Positions 20,928-26,969 of a stretch of 64,000 nucleotides of DNA are shown piece after piece (positions within the stretch are counted from its first letter, which is position 1; each line of letters starts with the position of its first letter). The notes under the pieces were generated by a model, which saw only the letters and a program-made list of their open reading frames with translations, was not told the DNA's origin and did not search any database. Source of the DNA: Dasania sp. GY-MA-18 (GTDB lineage Bacteria; Pseudomonadota; Gammaproteobacteria; Pseudomonadales; Dasaniaceae); NCBI RefSeq assembly GCF_024734385.1, contig NZ_JANHAP010000003.1:248001-312000 (forward strand), written 5' to 3'. A program made the position numbers and the translations under genes.

Positions 20928-21458
20928 ATGAATGATATAGCAATAAAAATTTCTATGATAGTGGCTGTTGCCGAAAACGGTGTGATAGGGCGCAATAATC
21001 AATTGCCCTGGTACTTGCCCGAAGATTTAAAATATTTTAAGCGCGTGACTATGGCCAAGCCTATAGTGATGGGCAGAAAAACTTTTGAGTCTATAGGCAG
21101 GCCGCTGCCTGGGCGCAGCAATATCGTTGTTACCCGTAACACTCATTTTAGTGCTGAAGGCGTAAAAGTCGTCGGTAGTATAGATGAAGCAATTAAGTTG
21201 GCGGACGATATTGCTGTGATCGATGGTGCTAAAGAATTAATGATAATTGGCGGTGCGCAATTGTATGCGGATATTTTGCCAAAAGTAGACCGGCTCTATC
21301 TTACCGAGGTGCATGCGGTGGTAGAGGGCGATGCTTTTTTTCCCGAAATAGACAGAGAAATGTGGCGAGAAGTAGCGCGTGAAAAGTATTTGGCCAGTGG
21401 GCCAAATACCTATGATTACAGCTTTGTAGTGCTGGATCGCTGCAAAAATGACCAGTAG
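20928..21458 (+). CDS. folA: Dihydrofolate reductase
   Basis: A 176-residue NADPH-dependent reductase producing tetrahydrofolate, the target of trimethoprim. The N-terminus ISMIVAVAENGVIGRNNQLPWYLPEDLKYF holds the substrate-binding Met20-loop equivalent and the catalytic acid Asp/Glu pair region. GRKTFESIGRPLPGRSN (near residues 50-66) and IIGGAQLYADIL (near residue 106) form the NADPH site. The ATG at 20928 follows an AAAAAAG stretch rather than a strong RBS. It is the last gene of the lgt-thyA-folA run. Confidence 0.96.
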   Translation: MNDIAIKISMIVAVAENGVIGRNNQLPWYLPEDLKYFKRVTMAKPIVMGRKTFESIGRPLPGRSNIVVTRNTHFSAEGVKVVGSIDEAIKLADDIAVIDGAKELMIIGGAQLYADILPKVDRLYLTEVHAVVEGDAFFPEIDREMWREVAREKYLASGPNTYDYSFVVLDRCKNDQ

Positions 21459-21462
21459 GCAT

Positions 21463-21529
21463 GTGTTACCAAACGTGGCAAAAGTGTTTCCATATTTCTC
21501 TTGGCAAGGTAACACTTCACCCTTTGGTG
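21463..21529. repeat. Inverted repeats downstream of folA
   Basis: GTGTTACC (21463-21470) and GGTAACAC (21508-21515) form a perfect 8-bp inverted repeat with a 37-base loop. A second small palindrome, CACC-CTTT-GGTG (21518-21529), is followed by a T-rich run. Together they may end the folA transcript. The rest of 21530-21703 must contain the promoter of the next operon, but no clear boxes were found. Confidence 0.35.
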
Positions 21530-21703
21530 GTAAATTTTAGAATTTACTGCTGAAAATAGGGAATGAGCGTTGATTATTGAATTCAGATCCTATTAAATGC
21601 GCGCTTGTTCTTGAAATGCAAAGTAGTACGACTACCTTAAATTGATAGGTTAGAAGTTTCTCAAACTGTTTTAATAAACATCCCTGAAGGAAATGCAATC
21701 CCC

Positions 21704-22489
21704 ATGAATATGCATCGATTCAAAACGATCGCGTTTGCCATGACTATGTCAGCTGGCACGCTGCTTGGCGCTTCTGGCGCACAAGCGAACACCGTTGATG
21801 CTGTGATCAAAGTAGGCGAGGCAAAAACTGTCGCCGCCCAACAATCACAGAAGAAAATTGACACATTAGCTGGAGAGACCGACAGCTTGTTACAAGACTA
21901 TAAGACAGTCATGAAGCAAGTAGACGGCCTTAAGGTGTATAACTCACGTCTGGAAAAGCAAATTGCTAACCAGTTAGAGCGCATCGAAGATATCGAAGCC
22001 TCTATCGGTCAAGTAACTGTTATACAGCGTCAGGTAACCCCTCTGGTTATTCGCATGATTGACGGTTTGGAGCAGTTTGTAAAACTTGATATTCCATTCC
22101 ATCAAGAAGAGCGTGCAGCGCGCATTAAGTTCTTGCGCACTAACGTAGACCGCTCTGATTTGGCTGTTTCTGAGAAGTTTCGCCAAGTATTAGAGGCTTA
22201 CAAAATCGAAAATGAGTACGGTCGTAAGATCGATGCTTATAAAGGTAGCGTAGCTATAGACGGTGTTGAGCGTGAAGTTAACTTCTTCCGCGTTGGCCGT
22301 GTAGCCTTGTTATATCAAACAACTGACACTGAAATCTCAGGTGCCTGGGATAAGAAAACAGGTCAATTCGTTCAGTTAGAGAAAAGTGCCTATCGCAGTG
22401 CAATCTTGAAAGGTTTAAAAGTTGCACGTAAAGAAGCCTCTATCGATATCTTGAAATTACCGATTCCTGCTCCGGAGGCCGCTAAATAA
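21704..22489 (+). CDS. DUF3450 periplasmic coiled-coil protein
   Basis: A 261-residue exported protein: residues 1-28 form a signal peptide ending at ASGAQA. Long heptad-rich helices follow (about 40-110) and then a compact C-terminal region (FFRVGRVALLYQTTD near residue 195, AWDKKTGQFVQL near 218). This is the DUF3450 family, found just upstream of TtpC-ExbB-ExbD-TonB2 clusters in marine gammaproteobacteria. It probably forms part of the periplasmic section of that energy-transduction complex, but no biochemical function is established. The stop overlaps the next start (TAATGA). AAGG lies 13 bases before the ATG. Confidence 0.88.
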   Translation: MNMHRFKTIAFAMTMSAGTLLGASGAQANTVDAVIKVGEAKTVAAQQSQKKIDTLAGETDSLLQDYKTVMKQVDGLKVYNSRLEKQIANQLERIEDIEASIGQVTVIQRQVTPLVIRMIDGLEQFVKLDIPFHQEERAARIKFLRTNVDRSDLAVSEKFRQVLEAYKIENEYGRKIDAYKGSVAIDGVEREVNFFRVGRVALLYQTTDTEISGAWDKKTGQFVQLEKSAYRSAILKGLKVARKEASIDILKLPIPAPEAAK

Positions 22490-23874
22490 TGAAAACTCAA
22501 TTATTTAAGTCAGCAATATTTGCTGCGTTGACTATGGCTTCAGCTACTGTAGTAGTTGCACAAGAAGCTAAATCATTAGACCAATTGTTAGGTTTTGTTA
22601 AGCAAGGTCAAATTGACGAAGCTAAAGAAAACAAGCAGCGCGAAGCGGCTTTCCGCAACGCTAAAGCTAAGCAAGGTCAATTATTGAACGAAGCTAAAGC
22701 TATGCGTACCGCTCAAGAGAAGCGTTCTGCACAGCTAGAAGGCGAGTTCGAGAAAAACGAATTGCGCGTAGCTGATAAGCAACGTCAATTAAAAGAGCGT
22801 TTGGGTACTTTGACTGAGTTATTCGGTCACCTAACCTCTACTGCTGGTGACTTACGCGGTAACTTCGGTAGCTCATTAGTAAGCGCCCAGTTCCCTAACC
22901 GTGAAGCTTTCCTAGACGAAATGATTGCTAAGATGAGCGGAGCTGAGAAGCTACCTAGCATCGAAGAAATCGAGCGTTTATGGTTTGAATTACAGCGTGA
23001 AATGACTGAATCTGGTCGTATTGTTGCCTTTGACGCCGAAGTATCTACTCCAGGCGGTGAAAAGTCAGTACGTAAAGTTGTACGTGTTGGTACTTTCAAC
23101 ATGGTGACTGAAGACGGCAAATACTTACAGTATGTGTCTGAAACCGGTGGTTTAAACGAATTAGCACGTCAGCCTTCAGGTCCTGTTGTGGGCTGGGCAA
23201 AAGATTTAGCTAATGCGACTGAAGGCTTCAGCCCATTTGGTGTTGACCCCACAGGTCCTACTGGCGGTACTTTCCTAGCTGCGTTGATCAACTCTCCAAC
23301 TTTGGGTGAGCGCTTTGAGCAAGGTGGCACTATCGGTAAGGCAATTGCAGCTGTAGGTGTGTTCGCAATATTGTTAGCCTTGTGGCGTCTAGTAGTGTTA
23401 ACCGGTGTTAATGCCCGCGTTAGTGCTCAGCTTAAGTCTGATAAAGCCAATACTAACAACCCACTGGGTCGTGTGTTGATGGTTCACGAGCAGAACCCAA
23501 CTATGGATACTGAAACTCTAGAATTGAAGCTTTCTGAAGCGATTCTACGTGAAGTACCTAAGATTGAGTTTGGCTTGAACCTGTTGAAAATCATTGCCGC
23601 GATTGCGCCTCTGATGGGTCTACTAGGTACCGTAACCGGTATGATCATTACCTTCCAAGCTATCACCATCTTCGGTGCTGGTGATCCAAAAGCAATGGCT
23701 GGCGGTATCTCTGGTGCGCTTGTAACGACGGTATTGGGTCTATTAGTAGCGATTCCAACAGTACTACTACACACTGTGACCAGTGGTCAGGCTAAGAAAG
23801 TTATCCAAGTATTGGACGAGCAATCTACAGGCCTAATCGCTGAGCATACTGAGGCTCAACTGGGGAAAGCGTAA
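22489..23874 (+). CDS. ttpC: TtpC-type MotA/TolQ/ExbB proton-channel protein
   Basis: A 461-residue inner-membrane protein with a signal peptide (about 1-24), a periplasmic coiled coil (about 30-115) and a membrane domain with helices near 290-310, 370-390 and 415-435. The segment AAIAPLMGLLGTVTGMIITF (about 372-391) and a late GALVTTVLGLLVAIP are the MotA/TolQ/ExbB signature. The large N-terminal periplasmic extension separates it from plain ExbB and matches TtpC of Vibrio TonB2 systems, which is required for TonB2 function. It lies directly before a second, short ExbB and touches it without a gap. Confidence 0.88.
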   Translation: MKTQLFKSAIFAALTMASATVVVAQEAKSLDQLLGFVKQGQIDEAKENKQREAAFRNAKAKQGQLLNEAKAMRTAQEKRSAQLEGEFEKNELRVADKQRQLKERLGTLTELFGHLTSTAGDLRGNFGSSLVSAQFPNREAFLDEMIAKMSGAEKLPSIEEIERLWFELQREMTESGRIVAFDAEVSTPGGEKSVRKVVRVGTFNMVTEDGKYLQYVSETGGLNELARQPSGPVVGWAKDLANATEGFSPFGVDPTGPTGGTFLAALINSPTLGERFEQGGTIGKAIAAVGVFAILLALWRLVVLTGVNARVSAQLKSDKANTNNPLGRVLMVHEQNPTMDTETLELKLSEAILREVPKIEFGLNLLKIIAAIAPLMGLLGTVTGMIITFQAITIFGAGDPKAMAGGISGALVTTVLGLLVAIPTVLLHTVTSGQAKKVIQVLDEQSTGLIAEHTEAQLGKA

Positions 23875-24402
23875 ATGAACTACCTCTATGACGCACCGGA
23901 TATAATCAGACGGTTCATGGAGTCTGGGGGCGATGTGCTTTGGCTCATCGCTCTACTGACCTTCGTAATGTGGTCACTGGTATTCGAGCGTTTTTGGTAT
24001 TTCCATGGGGCTATGCGCCGCGATGTTGATAATGCAGTAAATGCATGGGAAGCACGCAGCGAACGCAAGTCCTGGAACGCCCACCAGATTCGTCGCCAAT
24101 TAATTTCACAGGTGACTTTAAGAATCAACCAAGGCTTACCAATGATTAAAACATTGGTAGCCATGGCGCCTTTATTAGGTCTGCTAGGCACGGTAACAGG
24201 TATGATAGAAGTATTTAATATCATGGCTGTAACCGGCGGTGGCGACGCTAAATCAATGGCGGGTGGTGTATCGAAAGCGACGATCCCAACTATGGCTGGG
24301 ATGGTAGCCGCGCTATCGGGCGTGTTTGCCAATACTTATGTAACTCGTGTTGCTGAGCGTGAAAGCGAGCTGCTCGAAGACCATCTGACAACTGATCACT
24401 AA
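23875..24402 (+). CDS. exbB: Biopolymer transport protein ExbB (ExbB2)
   Basis: A 175-residue inner-membrane proton-channel subunit with three transmembrane segments (about 17-38, 95-117 and 140-162). VAMAPLLGLLGTVTGMIEVF is the TolQ/ExbB signature, and the helix after it carries the TIPTMAGMVAALSG proton path. It assembles with ExbD and TonB to power outer-membrane transport using the proton gradient. The ATG follows the ttpC stop with no gap (TAAATG), so translation is probably coupled. The short form without an N-terminal extension is typical of TonB2-type clusters. Confidence 0.94.
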   Translation: MNYLYDAPDIIRRFMESGGDVLWLIALLTFVMWSLVFERFWYFHGAMRRDVDNAVNAWEARSERKSWNAHQIRRQLISQVTLRINQGLPMIKTLVAMAPLLGLLGTVTGMIEVFNIMAVTGGGDAKSMAGGVSKATIPTMAGMVAALSGVFANTYVTRVAERESELLEDHLTTDH

Positions 24403-24412
24403 GAGATTCAAC

Positions 24413-24820
24413 ATGCGCAGAAATAATAGAAGAGGCGGTGAAGATAACGCCTCAGAAATTGATTTAACGCCAATGCTGGACGTTGTATTCATCATGCTGA
24501 TTTTCTTCATCGTGACGGCTTCGTTCATTAAAGAAGCAGGCATAGAAGTTAATCGTCCAGAAGCATCGACAGCTAGCAAAAAAGAGAATGTAAATATTCT
24601 TGTTGCGGTAAGTGCTACCAACGAAATATGGATAGACAAGCGTCGTGTAGATAAGCGCTCTGTTCGTTCCGTTATCGAACGTATGCACGCAGAGAACCCG
24701 AAAGGGGCAGTGGTAGTTCAAGCTGATTTAGCTTCAACAACCGAAACTGTAACCTCTGTTATCGATTCTGCTCGCGCTGCGGGTGTATTCGATGTGTCGC
24801 TAGCCACAGAAGATGACTAA
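24413..24820 (+). CDS. exbD: Biopolymer transport protein ExbD
   Basis: A 135-residue single-pass inner-membrane protein with a periplasmic domain. The family signature IDLTPMLDVVFIMLIFFIVTASF covers residues 16-38; Asp23 within it is the protonatable residue essential in ExbD/TolR. The C-terminal domain (60-135) carries the usual beta-alpha fold. It partners the ExbB encoded just upstream and the TonB encoded four bases downstream. Confidence 0.95.
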   Translation: MRRNNRRGGEDNASEIDLTPMLDVVFIMLIFFIVTASFIKEAGIEVNRPEASTASKKENVNILVAVSATNEIWIDKRRVDKRSVRSVIERMHAENPKGAVVVQADLASTTETVTSVIDSARAAGVFDVSLATEDD

Positions 24821-24823
24821 AGT

Positions 24824-25426
24824 ATGAATTACGCACGTTTACTAATTGGCACGGCATTAGGTTTTGTTGTAACAGCAGTCCTATTTGTCATCATGCCAAC
24901 GTTAATCGAAATGGCAGATAAATCGTTGGATGAATCAAAAATCCAACGTATTGCTGACATCACGATGCCCGAAGTAGAGATCGACGTGAACTTGGCTGAA
25001 GTCAAGCCGCCCAAGCCGGCTGACCCTGAAGAGCCGCCACCTGAAATGGATCAACCCGATGTTAGCGATGTGGATATTAGCCCTGATGCGGTTAATATGA
25101 CGCCCACCGCTTCATTAGAGATTGATATAGGTTCAGGCTTTGGTGGTGCTGATGGTGAATATTTGCCGATCTTTAAAGTGGCACCCATGTATCCTCGTAG
25201 AGCGAATAGCCGTGGTATAACCGGTTACTGTATTGTTGAATACACCGTAACAACTACCGGCGCAACAAAAGACGTAGTACCTGTCGATTGTGAACCTGCG
25301 GGCTATTTTGAACGTACTTCTGTGAAAGCAGCATTGAAATTTAAGTACAAGCCGCGTGTATTAGATGGCGAGCCCATCGAAGTACCTGGCGTTCAAAACC
25401 GCTTTATCTACGAGCTTGATCAATAA
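24824..25426 (+). CDS. tonB: TonB2-type energy transducer
   Basis: A 200-residue protein with an N-terminal membrane anchor (about 7-28), a Pro/Glu/Asp-rich periplasmic linker (about 60-95: KPPKPADPEEPPPE and similar) and the C-terminal TonB domain. That domain includes APMYPRRANSRGITGYCIVEYTV and a closing AALKFKYKPRVLDG. TonB delivers energy from ExbB/ExbD to outer-membrane receptors. The short linker and missing Pro-Lys repeat resemble TonB2 rather than E. coli TonB1. No TonB-dependent receptor is encoded in the window. Confidence 0.92.
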   Translation: MNYARLLIGTALGFVVTAVLFVIMPTLIEMADKSLDESKIQRIADITMPEVEIDVNLAEVKPPKPADPEEPPPEMDQPDVSDVDISPDAVNMTPTASLEIDIGSGFGGADGEYLPIFKVAPMYPRRANSRGITGYCIVEYTVTTTGATKDVVPVDCEPAGYFERTSVKAALKFKYKPRVLDGEPIEVPGVQNRFIYELDQ

Positions 25427-25443
25427 CTACGGGTCATTTGATA

Positions 25444-26796
25444 ATGAATGTTTTACAGATGAAAACAATCAAGCGATGGACCTGTGCAGCTGCTATCAGC
25501 ATGCCGGTACTCGCAATTCAAGCCGTACTGCCCAGCGTTGTTGCCCCTCTTTTTAATGATATGGCCATAGGCTCTGCCTATGCTGAAGAAGAAAAAAGTG
25601 GTGATCAGCGTAAAGCGAAGCGTACGCAAGCAATGAACCAGAAGGTTTATAAAAAGCTACAAGAAGTGCAAGAGTTAATTGATGCTAAGGATTATGACGG
25701 CGCGCATCAGCTAATCGCTGAAGTTAAAGGTGGCAGCAAGCCACTTAACGACGCCGAGCTATCAACAACTTTAAACCTTGAAGCTTTTATTTTCTATAAC
25801 CAGGATAAGCTTACGGATGCCATCAAGGCCTATAAGCAAATCATAACCTTAGAAAAAGCACCTGAAGGTACCAAGCTTGCAGCTAGATATAGTGCCGCAC
25901 AAATGTATTTCGCTATAGAAGAATATAGCAAAGGTGTAGAGATGTTGAAGACTTGGTTCAAGGCTTCAGATCCTAATACTATAGGCGCTAACGCTTATGT
26001 GCTATTAGCACAAGGCCAGTACCAAATGAAAGAGTACGACAGTTCTATTAAGAATGTCGACAAAGCTATAGGCATGTACAAAGAGAAAGGCAAGGTACCT
26101 AAAGAAAACTGGTATGGCTTGCAGCGCTTCTTGTACCAAGAGAAGAAAGACTACGATAAAGTTATTAGCATTCTTAAAGAGATGCTAGTTCACTATCCTA
26201 AAAAGCAATACTGGGCGCAGCTTTCAGCCATGTATGGTGAGAAAGAAATGTTAAGTAAGCAGTTAGCTGCTTATGAAACAGCGTATGTACAGAATTTGTT
26301 TGAAAGTGAGCAAGACTTAACGCGTATGGCTTATATCTTCTTAGCCAGCGAAGTACCTTACAAAGCCGCTAAGGTTATGGACAAAGGTATTAAAGCTAAG
26401 CAAATTAAAGCAACTTCCAAAAACTTGGAATTATTAGGTAATGCGTGGCGCGCATCACAGGAGTTAGATAAAGCAATTCCTGTTATGGCTCAAGCTGCTG
26501 AAAAATCTGATAAGGGCGAGCTATGGACGCGTTTAGGTACTTTGTACTTAAATAATGATAGCTTTAAAGAAGCTGCTGAAGCGATTAAAGCAGGTTTGAA
26601 AAAGGGTGGTGTTAAGCGTCCTGATCAAGCTAATTTGGCTTTAGGTATGGCTTACTTCAACATGAAAGATTACAACTCGGCACGCAAAGCTTTTGGCGAA
26701 GCGGGCAAAGACAAGCGCTCTACTGAGACTGCTGGTCAGTGGTTGGATTACATGGAAAAAGAAATAGAGCGTCAAAAGAGTTTGTTAGAAGGTTGA
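25444..26796 (+). CDS. TPR-repeat protein of the TonB2 operon
   Basis: A 450-residue exported protein; the ATG at 25444 is preferred over a TTG at 25438. Residues 1-45 form a long signal peptide ending near GSAYA. The rest is helical, with several tetratricopeptide-like repeats (for example YNQDKLTDAIKAYKQII near 120 and LGTLYLNNDSFKEAAEAIKAGL near 360). It is the last gene before a strong terminator and is probably co-expressed with the Ton genes. TPR proteins follow ttpC-exbB-exbD-tonB2 in other marine gammaproteobacteria and may scaffold the complex; the partner is unknown. Confidence 0.82.
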   Translation: MNVLQMKTIKRWTCAAAISMPVLAIQAVLPSVVAPLFNDMAIGSAYAEEEKSGDQRKAKRTQAMNQKVYKKLQEVQELIDAKDYDGAHQLIAEVKGGSKPLNDAELSTTLNLEAFIFYNQDKLTDAIKAYKQIITLEKAPEGTKLAARYSAAQMYFAIEEYSKGVEMLKTWFKASDPNTIGANAYVLLAQGQYQMKEYDSSIKNVDKAIGMYKEKGKVPKENWYGLQRFLYQEKKDYDKVISILKEMLVHYPKKQYWAQLSAMYGEKEMLSKQLAAYETAYVQNLFESEQDLTRMAYIFLASEVPYKAAKVMDKGIKAKQIKATSKNLELLGNAWRASQELDKAIPVMAQAAEKSDKGELWTRLGTLYLNNDSFKEAAEAIKAGLKKGGVKRPDQANLALGMAYFNMKDYNSARKAFGEAGKDKRSTETAGQWLDYMEKEIERQKSLLEG

Positions 26797-26816
26797 TAAA
26801 TACATTTTGGCGAAAA

Positions 26817-26844
26817 GGCAGCTTTGAGAGCTGCCTTTTTTTTT
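26817..26844 (+). terminator. Strong intrinsic terminator of the TonB2-type operon
   Basis: GGCAGCT (26817-26823) and AGCTGCC (26829-26835) form a perfect 7-bp stem with a TTGAG loop, followed by nine T. Confidence 0.93.
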
Positions 26845-26854
26845 GCCAATTTTT

Positions 26855-26870
26855 AGCTACAAGCTACAAG
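26855..26870 (-). repeat. Heptameric repeat, locus 1 (AGCTACA x2)
   Basis: Two direct copies of AGCTACA followed by AG on the plus strand, in 7-bp phase, just after the operon terminator. The same unit occurs at 51081-51188. Confidence 0.65.
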
Positions 26871-26900
26871 AAATACGTTGTAAGAAGAAAGTTTAAAGAC

Positions 26901-26931
26901 AAAAAAACCAAGCCATAGGCTTGGTTTTTTT
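26901..26931. terminator. Bidirectional terminator between the TPR gene and ilvD
   Basis: An A-run, ACCAAGCC-ATA-GGCTTGGT, and a T-run form a symmetric stem flanked by A7 and T7. It can terminate ilvD on the minus strand and any read-through on the plus strand. Confidence 0.88.
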
Positions 26932-26969
26932 GAAGAGGTTTCGCTAGTTACAGCTGTTGCATAGCAGGC

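Follow-up and report, generated by a model that had tools for sequence, protein, structure and literature searches.

This report concerns a six-gene operon located on the forward strand, at positions 21704-26796, of a stretch of 64,000 nucleotides from Dasania sp. GY-MA-18, hereafter the window (positions 248001-312000 of contig C15 of a 3.8-Mb genome). The genes, in the order ttpB-ttpC-exbB-exbD-tonB-ttpD, encode a DUF3450 protein (TtpB), an ExbB-family protein with a long N-terminal part (TtpC, as defined by domain placement and modeling), a short form of ExbB, ExbD, TonB, and a TPR protein (TtpD). The operon is a member of the Ttp, or TonB2, kind previously recognized in marine bacteria and described in Vibrio vulnificus, in which the same six genes occur and the DUF3450 and TPR proteins were named TtpB and TtpD (Barnes et al., 2019, PMC6957404). 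We found that TtpB is related to the N-terminal half of TtpC and that the two proteins display couplings between residues occupying the same positions. Probably, the operon encodes a receptor-less, TonB2-like module that powers receptors encoded elsewhere and includes a rod in which TtpB and TtpC are paired in register.

Profile comparison showed that TtpB and the half of TtpC predicted to be periplasmic are homologous, a relationship that is new here. Comparison of 203 TtpB and 206 TtpC sequences by hhalign gave a probability of 96.6 (E 4.9e-10) for the whole proteins, 95.0 when restricted to the mature parts, and 91.4 when restricted to the C-terminal halves, which exclude the coil, versus 3.4 and 1.0 in control comparisons with TtpD. 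In the window TtpC, the DUF3450 model weakly matched residues 11-214 (E 6.1e-5; 22.9 bits for a cut-off of 32.6), and TtpC-like frames adjoining TtpB in some relatives exceeded this cut-off (G210, G744, G672, G660, and others). The AlphaFold2 model of TtpB (predicted local distance difference test, pLDDT, 82.5; predicted template modeling score, pTM, 0.54) comprised a helix at residues 30-103, helices up to residue 174, five strands at 176-225, and a helix at 227-250. The model of TtpC (pLDDT 81.0, pTM 0.44) comprised a helix at 32-128, helices up to 174, five strands at 178-224, and a helix at 233-242, followed by the membrane part. Compared by residue numbers, without superposition, the two models present the same order of elements at near-identical positions. 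The pTM of both single-protein models was low. Two observations weigh against the relationship of the proteins: narrower alignments gave weak hhalign probabilities (42.5 and 0.6), and a profile of 35 sequences compared to a single TtpC sequence gave 4.8. We claim no known fold for TtpB since Foldseek comparison of its model to the PDB returned no match at an E of 0.001 or better among 667 (best 0.058). Two PDB matches of TtpB found by sequence (E 0.01 and 0.88) were not accepted as relatives. In the part of the literature covered by searches for DUF3450, TtpB/TtpD, TtpC, and coiled coils, which included few subscription papers, no statement of homology or contact between TtpB and TtpC was found; a study of the evolution of MotAB, published in 2025, names DUF3450 as one of the domains added N-terminally to ExbB-type proteins (PMC12505986).

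Gaussian direct coupling analysis was applied to TtpB joined to residues 25-280 of TtpC. Operons lacking at least four genes of a plausible length were set aside, here as in the profile comparison, and columns with at least 25% gaps and rows with at least 30% gaps were excluded. Couplings with a residue offset of at most 6 were considered as in register. With 208 pairs of sequences, eight of the ten strongest inter-protein couplings were in register (0.51 expected) and every offset window outside the interval from -13 to 13 held at most one of the top ten. With 265 pairs, a set from which repeated TtpB tails among short loci had been excluded, the number was seven, versus one at most in each of 20 partner shuffles. 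The evidence resides in the pattern of positions rather than in the strength of the couplings since one shuffled pairing reached a Z of 10.9, as compared to 12.1 for the real pairing. This pattern points to contact between TtpB and TtpC.

The coupled coil pairs (94a-94a', 94a-97d', 48d-52a', 77e-72g', 84e-79g', and 77e-76d', TtpB residue first) fit one heptad frame at zero offset, in which position a corresponds to residues 73, 80, 87, and 94 of both proteins. Across relatives, charges were swapped in two e-g' pairs, with weighted counts of 55 E/R, 8 D/R, and 5 E/K versus 7 R/E for pair 84/79, and of 46 K/E and 17 R/E versus 6 E/R and 4 E/K for pair 77/72. The window operon has E/R at 84/79. 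Hydrophobicity at positions a and d was higher in this frame than in any other (1.45 in TtpB, next 0.06; -0.13 in TtpC, next -0.56). In a slide test, the contact set deduced from the heptad frame was scored at 121 slides in four settings. Slide 0 ranked first of 121 in all data (z 7.7-7.9), and did so as well in each of two subsets, one comprising the taxonomic order of the window and the majority of the named relatives (z 4.5-4.7 for N 125), the other comprising the remaining orders (z 6.4-6.7 for N 140). Named loci were assigned to the first subset except those with Alteromonas or one of its relatives, Pseudoalteromonas, Opacimonas, or Pleionea in the title; some of the titles were no more specific than Gammaproteobacteria. 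In five partner shuffles, slide 0 ranked 15th to 92nd. The parallel band scored above the best antiparallel band. Outside of the coil, couplings of residues 191 and 216 of TtpB to residues 186 and 218 of TtpC, respectively, suggest that the strand domains of the two proteins touch too. Together, these results strongly suggest that TtpB and TtpC pair in parallel and in register as a coiled coil and that the strand domains of the two proteins are also in contact.

Several observations are at odds with this arrangement. In the window operon, pair 77/72 is K/M and pair 94/97 is I/K. The coupling of 48-52 rests on rare variants, as most sequences have S/E there, and within residues 38-65 of TtpC all six other frames are more hydrophobic than the proposed one. 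Mutual information with average product correction (MI-APC) placed 0 of 10, 2 of 20, and 4 of 40 top pairs in register, and rose only in the top 80 (13 versus 4.1 expected). In the subset of other orders, 2 of the top 10 (p 0.09) and 5 of the top 20 (p 0.003) couplings were in register. The pattern was not significant in a class sample of 73 sequences, which is too small, or in 85 sequences sharing less than 45% identity. Finally, the two subsets of the slide test were not fully blind because the heptad frame had been derived from the strongest pairs obtained when all data were pooled. The relatedness of the sequences, together with the weak MI-APC signal at the top, the lack of significance in the class sample, and the ability of a shuffled pairing to produce a single strong pair, could mean that TtpB and TtpC do not touch and that the in-register couplings arise as an artefact, either from shared ancestry or because two self-associating homologues were under parallel selection. 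We consider this quite unlikely. Slid offsets carry the same relatedness and did not produce the signal, slide 0 was common to two separate sets of lineages, and the e-g' charge swaps obey the heptad. In addition, the ExbB domain of TtpC and ExbB, which are paralogues encoded by the same operons, provided a negative control without in-register excess (1 of the top 10 for 0.72 expected, and 1 of the top 20). Covariation of coil length was hardly informative (Spearman 0.15, p 0.013) because this length is almost fixed: the span corresponding to residues 30-113 of TtpB had the same length in 254 of 265 sequences and that corresponding to residues 30-138 of TtpC in 238 of 265.

In the positive control, ExbB-ExbD, the maximum was only 8.8, with pairs clustering at ExbD residues 22 and 28 (26 versus 5 in shuffles). 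The ExbB domain of TtpC was coupled to the same two residues (404-22, 372-28, and 367-22). Since both TtpC and ExbB are coupled to ExbD residues 22 and 28, these data hint at a mixed ring containing the two proteins. Residues 243-252 of TtpB were coupled (Z 9.5 and 8.7) to residues 397-416 of TtpC, which lie close to a loop predicted to be periplasmic; this likewise hints that the C-terminal end of TtpB may sit at the ring. For the pairs ExbD-TonB, ExbB-TonB, TonB-TtpD, TtpB-ExbB, TtpB-ExbD, TtpB-TonB, and TtpB-TtpD, maxima were 6.7-8.7 with no evident pattern, and nothing distinguished the TonB-TtpD pair from the others.

The Pfam families DUF3450, MotA_ExbB (twice), ExbD, TonB_C, and TPR were each detected above their own cut-off in the operon. 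The gene order was conserved in relatives, in agreement with the TtpC-type TonB energy module recognized in the preliminary description. DUF3450 was found above the cut-off in 87 of the 369 genomes of a class sample and in 183 of the 293 genomes of an order sample. The exact six-gene order recurred in 109 of 164 DUF3450-anchored chains (160 loci plus the window, whose own chain is counted). Of the 80 named relatives, 71 had all six genes and 58 had them in exactly this order; the loci of the two sets come partly from the same genomes. The arrangement is therefore not due to chance. Many of the chains lacking the exact order were cut by contig ends or contained a second ExbD. Two consecutive exbD genes were present at loci L267, L274, L275, L279, L280, L285, L286, L289, and L310, several of which are Halieaceae-like. 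At L066, L080, and L082, a second TtpB-TtpC-ExbD set directly followed the six-gene operon, and one of the two TtpB copies had a coil span of 53-57 residues instead of 84. A divergent group, comprising L094, L095, and DUF3450 copies matching only from profile positions 79-97 onward, has its N-terminal coil outside the family profile and is located beside a TtpC of 389 or 452 amino acids with no TtpD recognized. Titles such as Spongiibacteraceae and Halieaceae were carried by the closest named TtpB relatives among the matches listed, from which records very similar to the window may be missing.

The preliminary description had reported no TonB-dependent receptor, and all 53 Plug matches of the genome fall outside the window, hence outside the operon. 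Two of these matches are halves of one gene, leaving about 52 receptors in the genome; the Plug domain in question is split across two frames (G000:C17:7366-7679), indicating a disrupted gene or, alternatively, an assembly error. A receptor was recognized in the flank examined at 15 of 160 loci and in 4 of 80 named relatives, counts that are lower bounds because the hidden Markov model was built from nine receptors of the genome itself and may miss unlike ones. The module thus occurs with and without a receptor, and, owing to these low counts, a linked receptor is the exception in this kind of operon. A single clade of receptor-linked operons was considered and rejected, as these were scattered over the TtpC tree. 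The clade of the window contained 58 TtpC sequences (support 0.985), two of them with a receptor recognized in the flank. In the order sample, in which Plug was scored in at most 15 candidates per genome and only its presence or absence was used, 9 of the 293 genomes were Plug-less, all among the 110 without DUF3450 above the cut-off (P 1.2e-4, uncorrected for relatedness), and none among the 183 with full DUF3450. The sample of a third order consisted of one genome and brought no addition.

ExbB-family proteins also power the Tol system and gliding, and the absence of a linked receptor could be taken to mean that the module drives an envelope process other than receptor uptake, such as Tol-like constriction or motility. 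TtpD is weakly YbgF-like, although MamA scores better (NCBIfam, E 3.4e-7 and 2.5e-10, respectively, both below the cut-off); by sequence, its single PDB match was a designed TPR protein (E 0.0054). We regard such a role as very unlikely. The operon encodes a TonB_C domain, every genome with full DUF3450 in the order sample has a Plug match, and a second ExbB-ExbD pair of the genome, beside a TonB_C-bearing frame (C9:8.9-10.7 kb), may be TolQRA. The genetics of V. vulnificus and Teredinibacter turnerae also argue against it (PMC6957404, PMC10734418).

In V. vulnificus, the TonB2 system serves siderophores and is iron regulated, with a putative Fur box (PMC6957404). The identity of the gene set raises the possibility that the window operon is a dedicated, Fur-regulated energizer of iron-siderophore uptake. 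However, the best 19-mer upstream of the operon matched 11 of 19 bases of the Fur consensus (P 0.79, chance level), consistent with the preliminary description, in which no Fur-like site was recognized, and among 201 relatives only 4 had a match of at least 15 of 19. Unlike the window, L057 (G198) has an almost perfect Fur box upstream of ttpB, with 18 of 19 bases matched, and regulation may therefore differ among relatives. According to the 2023 study of T. turnerae, homologous clusters are not clearly iron regulated, and tonB1b and tonB2 serve growth on cellulose in addition to siderophore uptake (PMC10734418). For this reason, we treat the Fur box and iron control as a regulatory trait of Vibrio that does not define the Ttp-type TonB2 systems. 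A role restricted to iron is thus unlikely. We favor a general energizer, similar to that of T. turnerae, because receptors are rarely linked to the operon, about 52 are encoded by the genome, Plug and DUF3450 co-occur, and a Fur box above chance level was not found. This role, which the preliminary description had put forward as one option, fits the comparative data from which we infer it.

V. vulnificus TonB2 has DUF3450 first, TPR last, and no receptor gene, unlike TonB3, in which a receptor gene opens an operon for the same six proteins (PMC6957404). The likeness to TonB2 is one of gene set, and the two systems differ by the lack of a Fur-like site above chance in the window operon. T. turnerae TonB2 and TonB3 also share the gene set (PMC10734418); the genome of the window differs by its single full DUF3450 copy, and a second Ttp-type cluster was therefore not found there. 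The ExbB of Serratia marcescens, studied with the TonB paralogue HasB, has an added long periplasmic part (PMC9008036), a likeness by description rather than sequence; the extension of TtpC differs in being DUF3450-like and in having a free paralogue, TtpB. The ExbB-ExbD-TonB and TolQ-TolR systems of model bacteria have the MotA_ExbB and ExbD domains in common with the window operon, and TolQ and ExbB are structurally solved relatives of the C-terminal part of TtpC. These systems are not known to contain TtpB, TtpC, or TtpD.

The proton-driven action of ExbB, ExbD, and TonB is established for these families. Here, proton flow through a ring of ExbB and TtpC, with ExbD inside, would drive TonB onto outer-membrane receptors. 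TtpB and TtpC are predicted to be periplasmic from signal-like N-termini read by eye. TtpB, a secreted-looking relative of the periplasmic half of TtpC, would lie alongside the TtpC coil, parallel and in register, and the pair would form a periplasmic rod of fixed length above the ring. Conceivably, the rod holds or guides TonB or ExbD toward the receptors, or sets a distance. As a guess, TtpD may be a TPR scaffold acting on TonB or on the rod; we take it to be loosely comparable to YbgF/CpoB of the Tol system, on the basis of the weak match and of the function of the latter. A more specific version, which we put forward only tentatively, is a shafted Ton motor: a zipped rod, mounted on the mixed ring and at most about 12 nm long for 84 residues in fully helical form, would form a cage or ruler around TonB and reach about the peptidoglycan layer, and a TonB cluster of the same genome, devoid of exbB, would borrow the motor. 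Such a cluster, at G000:C9:236619-239224 (locus L112:4620-7225), encodes a TonB of 490 amino acids, a second TonB of 204 amino acids, and an ExbD 56% identical to that of the window, with no ExbB recognized in the 14 kb examined. The N-terminal part of the larger TonB contains an HExxH stretch, seen by eye, which is typical of M56/BlaR1-like peptidases. The window operon may supply this cluster with ExbB and TtpC. It resembles TonB1a/TonB1b/ExbD1 of T. turnerae, where the TonB1 cluster likewise comprises two tonB genes and exbD without exbB (PMC10734418).

The coordinates of the features are collected in Table 1. The preliminary description had noted six tightly spaced co-directional genes followed by a strong terminator, and this holds: read from the sequence, spacing from the first to the sixth gene consists of a 1-base overlap followed by 0, 10, 3, and 17 bases. 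The terminator hairpin was absent from the list of a consensus scanner. Sigma-70-like sites of the grade found upstream numbered 5 in positions 21400-26960 versus 8.8 in shuffles. An alternative TTG start for ttpD is present at 25438 in the open reading frame listing. The two cysteines of TonB were dropped from consideration because each was present in only 30% of relatives. Judged by eye from translations, the flanks contain lgt-, thyA-, and folA-like genes upstream and an ilvD-like gene downstream on the opposite strand.

Table 1. Features of the ttpB-ttpD operon (positions in the window).
Feature	Position	Strand	Properties and evidence
ttpB	21704-22489	+	261 aa; DUF3450 PF11932, E 6e-83, 278 bits (cut-off 32.6)
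ttpB architecture			Signal-like N-terminus (by eye); N-terminal long coil and C-terminal domain of five strands (AlphaFold2)
TtpB long helix, residues 30-103	21791-22012	+	Model, couplings, heptad hydrophobicity; predicted parallel coiled coil with TtpC
ttpC	22489-23874	+	461 aa; ExbB/MotA family; MotA_ExbB 1.7e-28; DUF3450-like N-terminal half, predicted periplasmic
TtpC long helix, residues 32-128	22582-22872	+	Model, couplings; predicted coiled coil with TtpB
TtpC five-stranded domain, residues 178-224, predicted periplasmic	23020-23160	+	Models, couplings 191-186 and 216-218; counterpart TtpB 176-225
exbB, short form	23875-24402	+	175 aa; MotA_ExbB 2.6e-23
exbD	24413-24820	+	135 aa; ExbD PF02472 1.5e-28
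tonB	24824-25426	+	200 aa; TonB_C PF03544 5e-13
ttpD	25444-26796	+	450 aa from ATG; TPR_2 6e-13; signal-like N-terminus (by eye)
Intrinsic terminator, hairpin and T run	26807-26849	+	-23.8 kcal/mol; z -5.9 versus 200 shuffles
Upstream intergenic region (promoter region)	21459-21703	+	One sigma-70-like match, 9/12, at 21516-21543

In V. vulnificus, TtpB2 and TtpD2 are each essential for iron transport by TonB2, a result that supersedes the statement of the preliminary description that the roles of the DUF3450 and TPR proteins were not established (PMC6957404). The same paper notes a leucine zipper motif in TtpB2 and leaves open the mode of action of the additional proteins. It also reports that TtpB2 was not replaceable by homologues from other species, for a reason left open by the authors, and that TtpD2 and, from earlier work, TtpC2 and TonB2 were exchangeable between species (PMC6957404). 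The species specificity of TtpB2 would be simply explained by a cognate rod, although the exchangeability of TtpC2 then needs explaining. What is new here is the homology of TtpB and TtpC and the prediction of an in-register rod for two previously unexplained coiled parts. The prediction names residues and thereby offers a concrete candidate reason for the non-exchangeability of TtpB2 between Vibrio species. Textbook accounts of TonB draw in large part on Escherichia coli, whose system has three proteins. If the prediction is true, ExbB-type motors can bear a built-in periplasmic rod.

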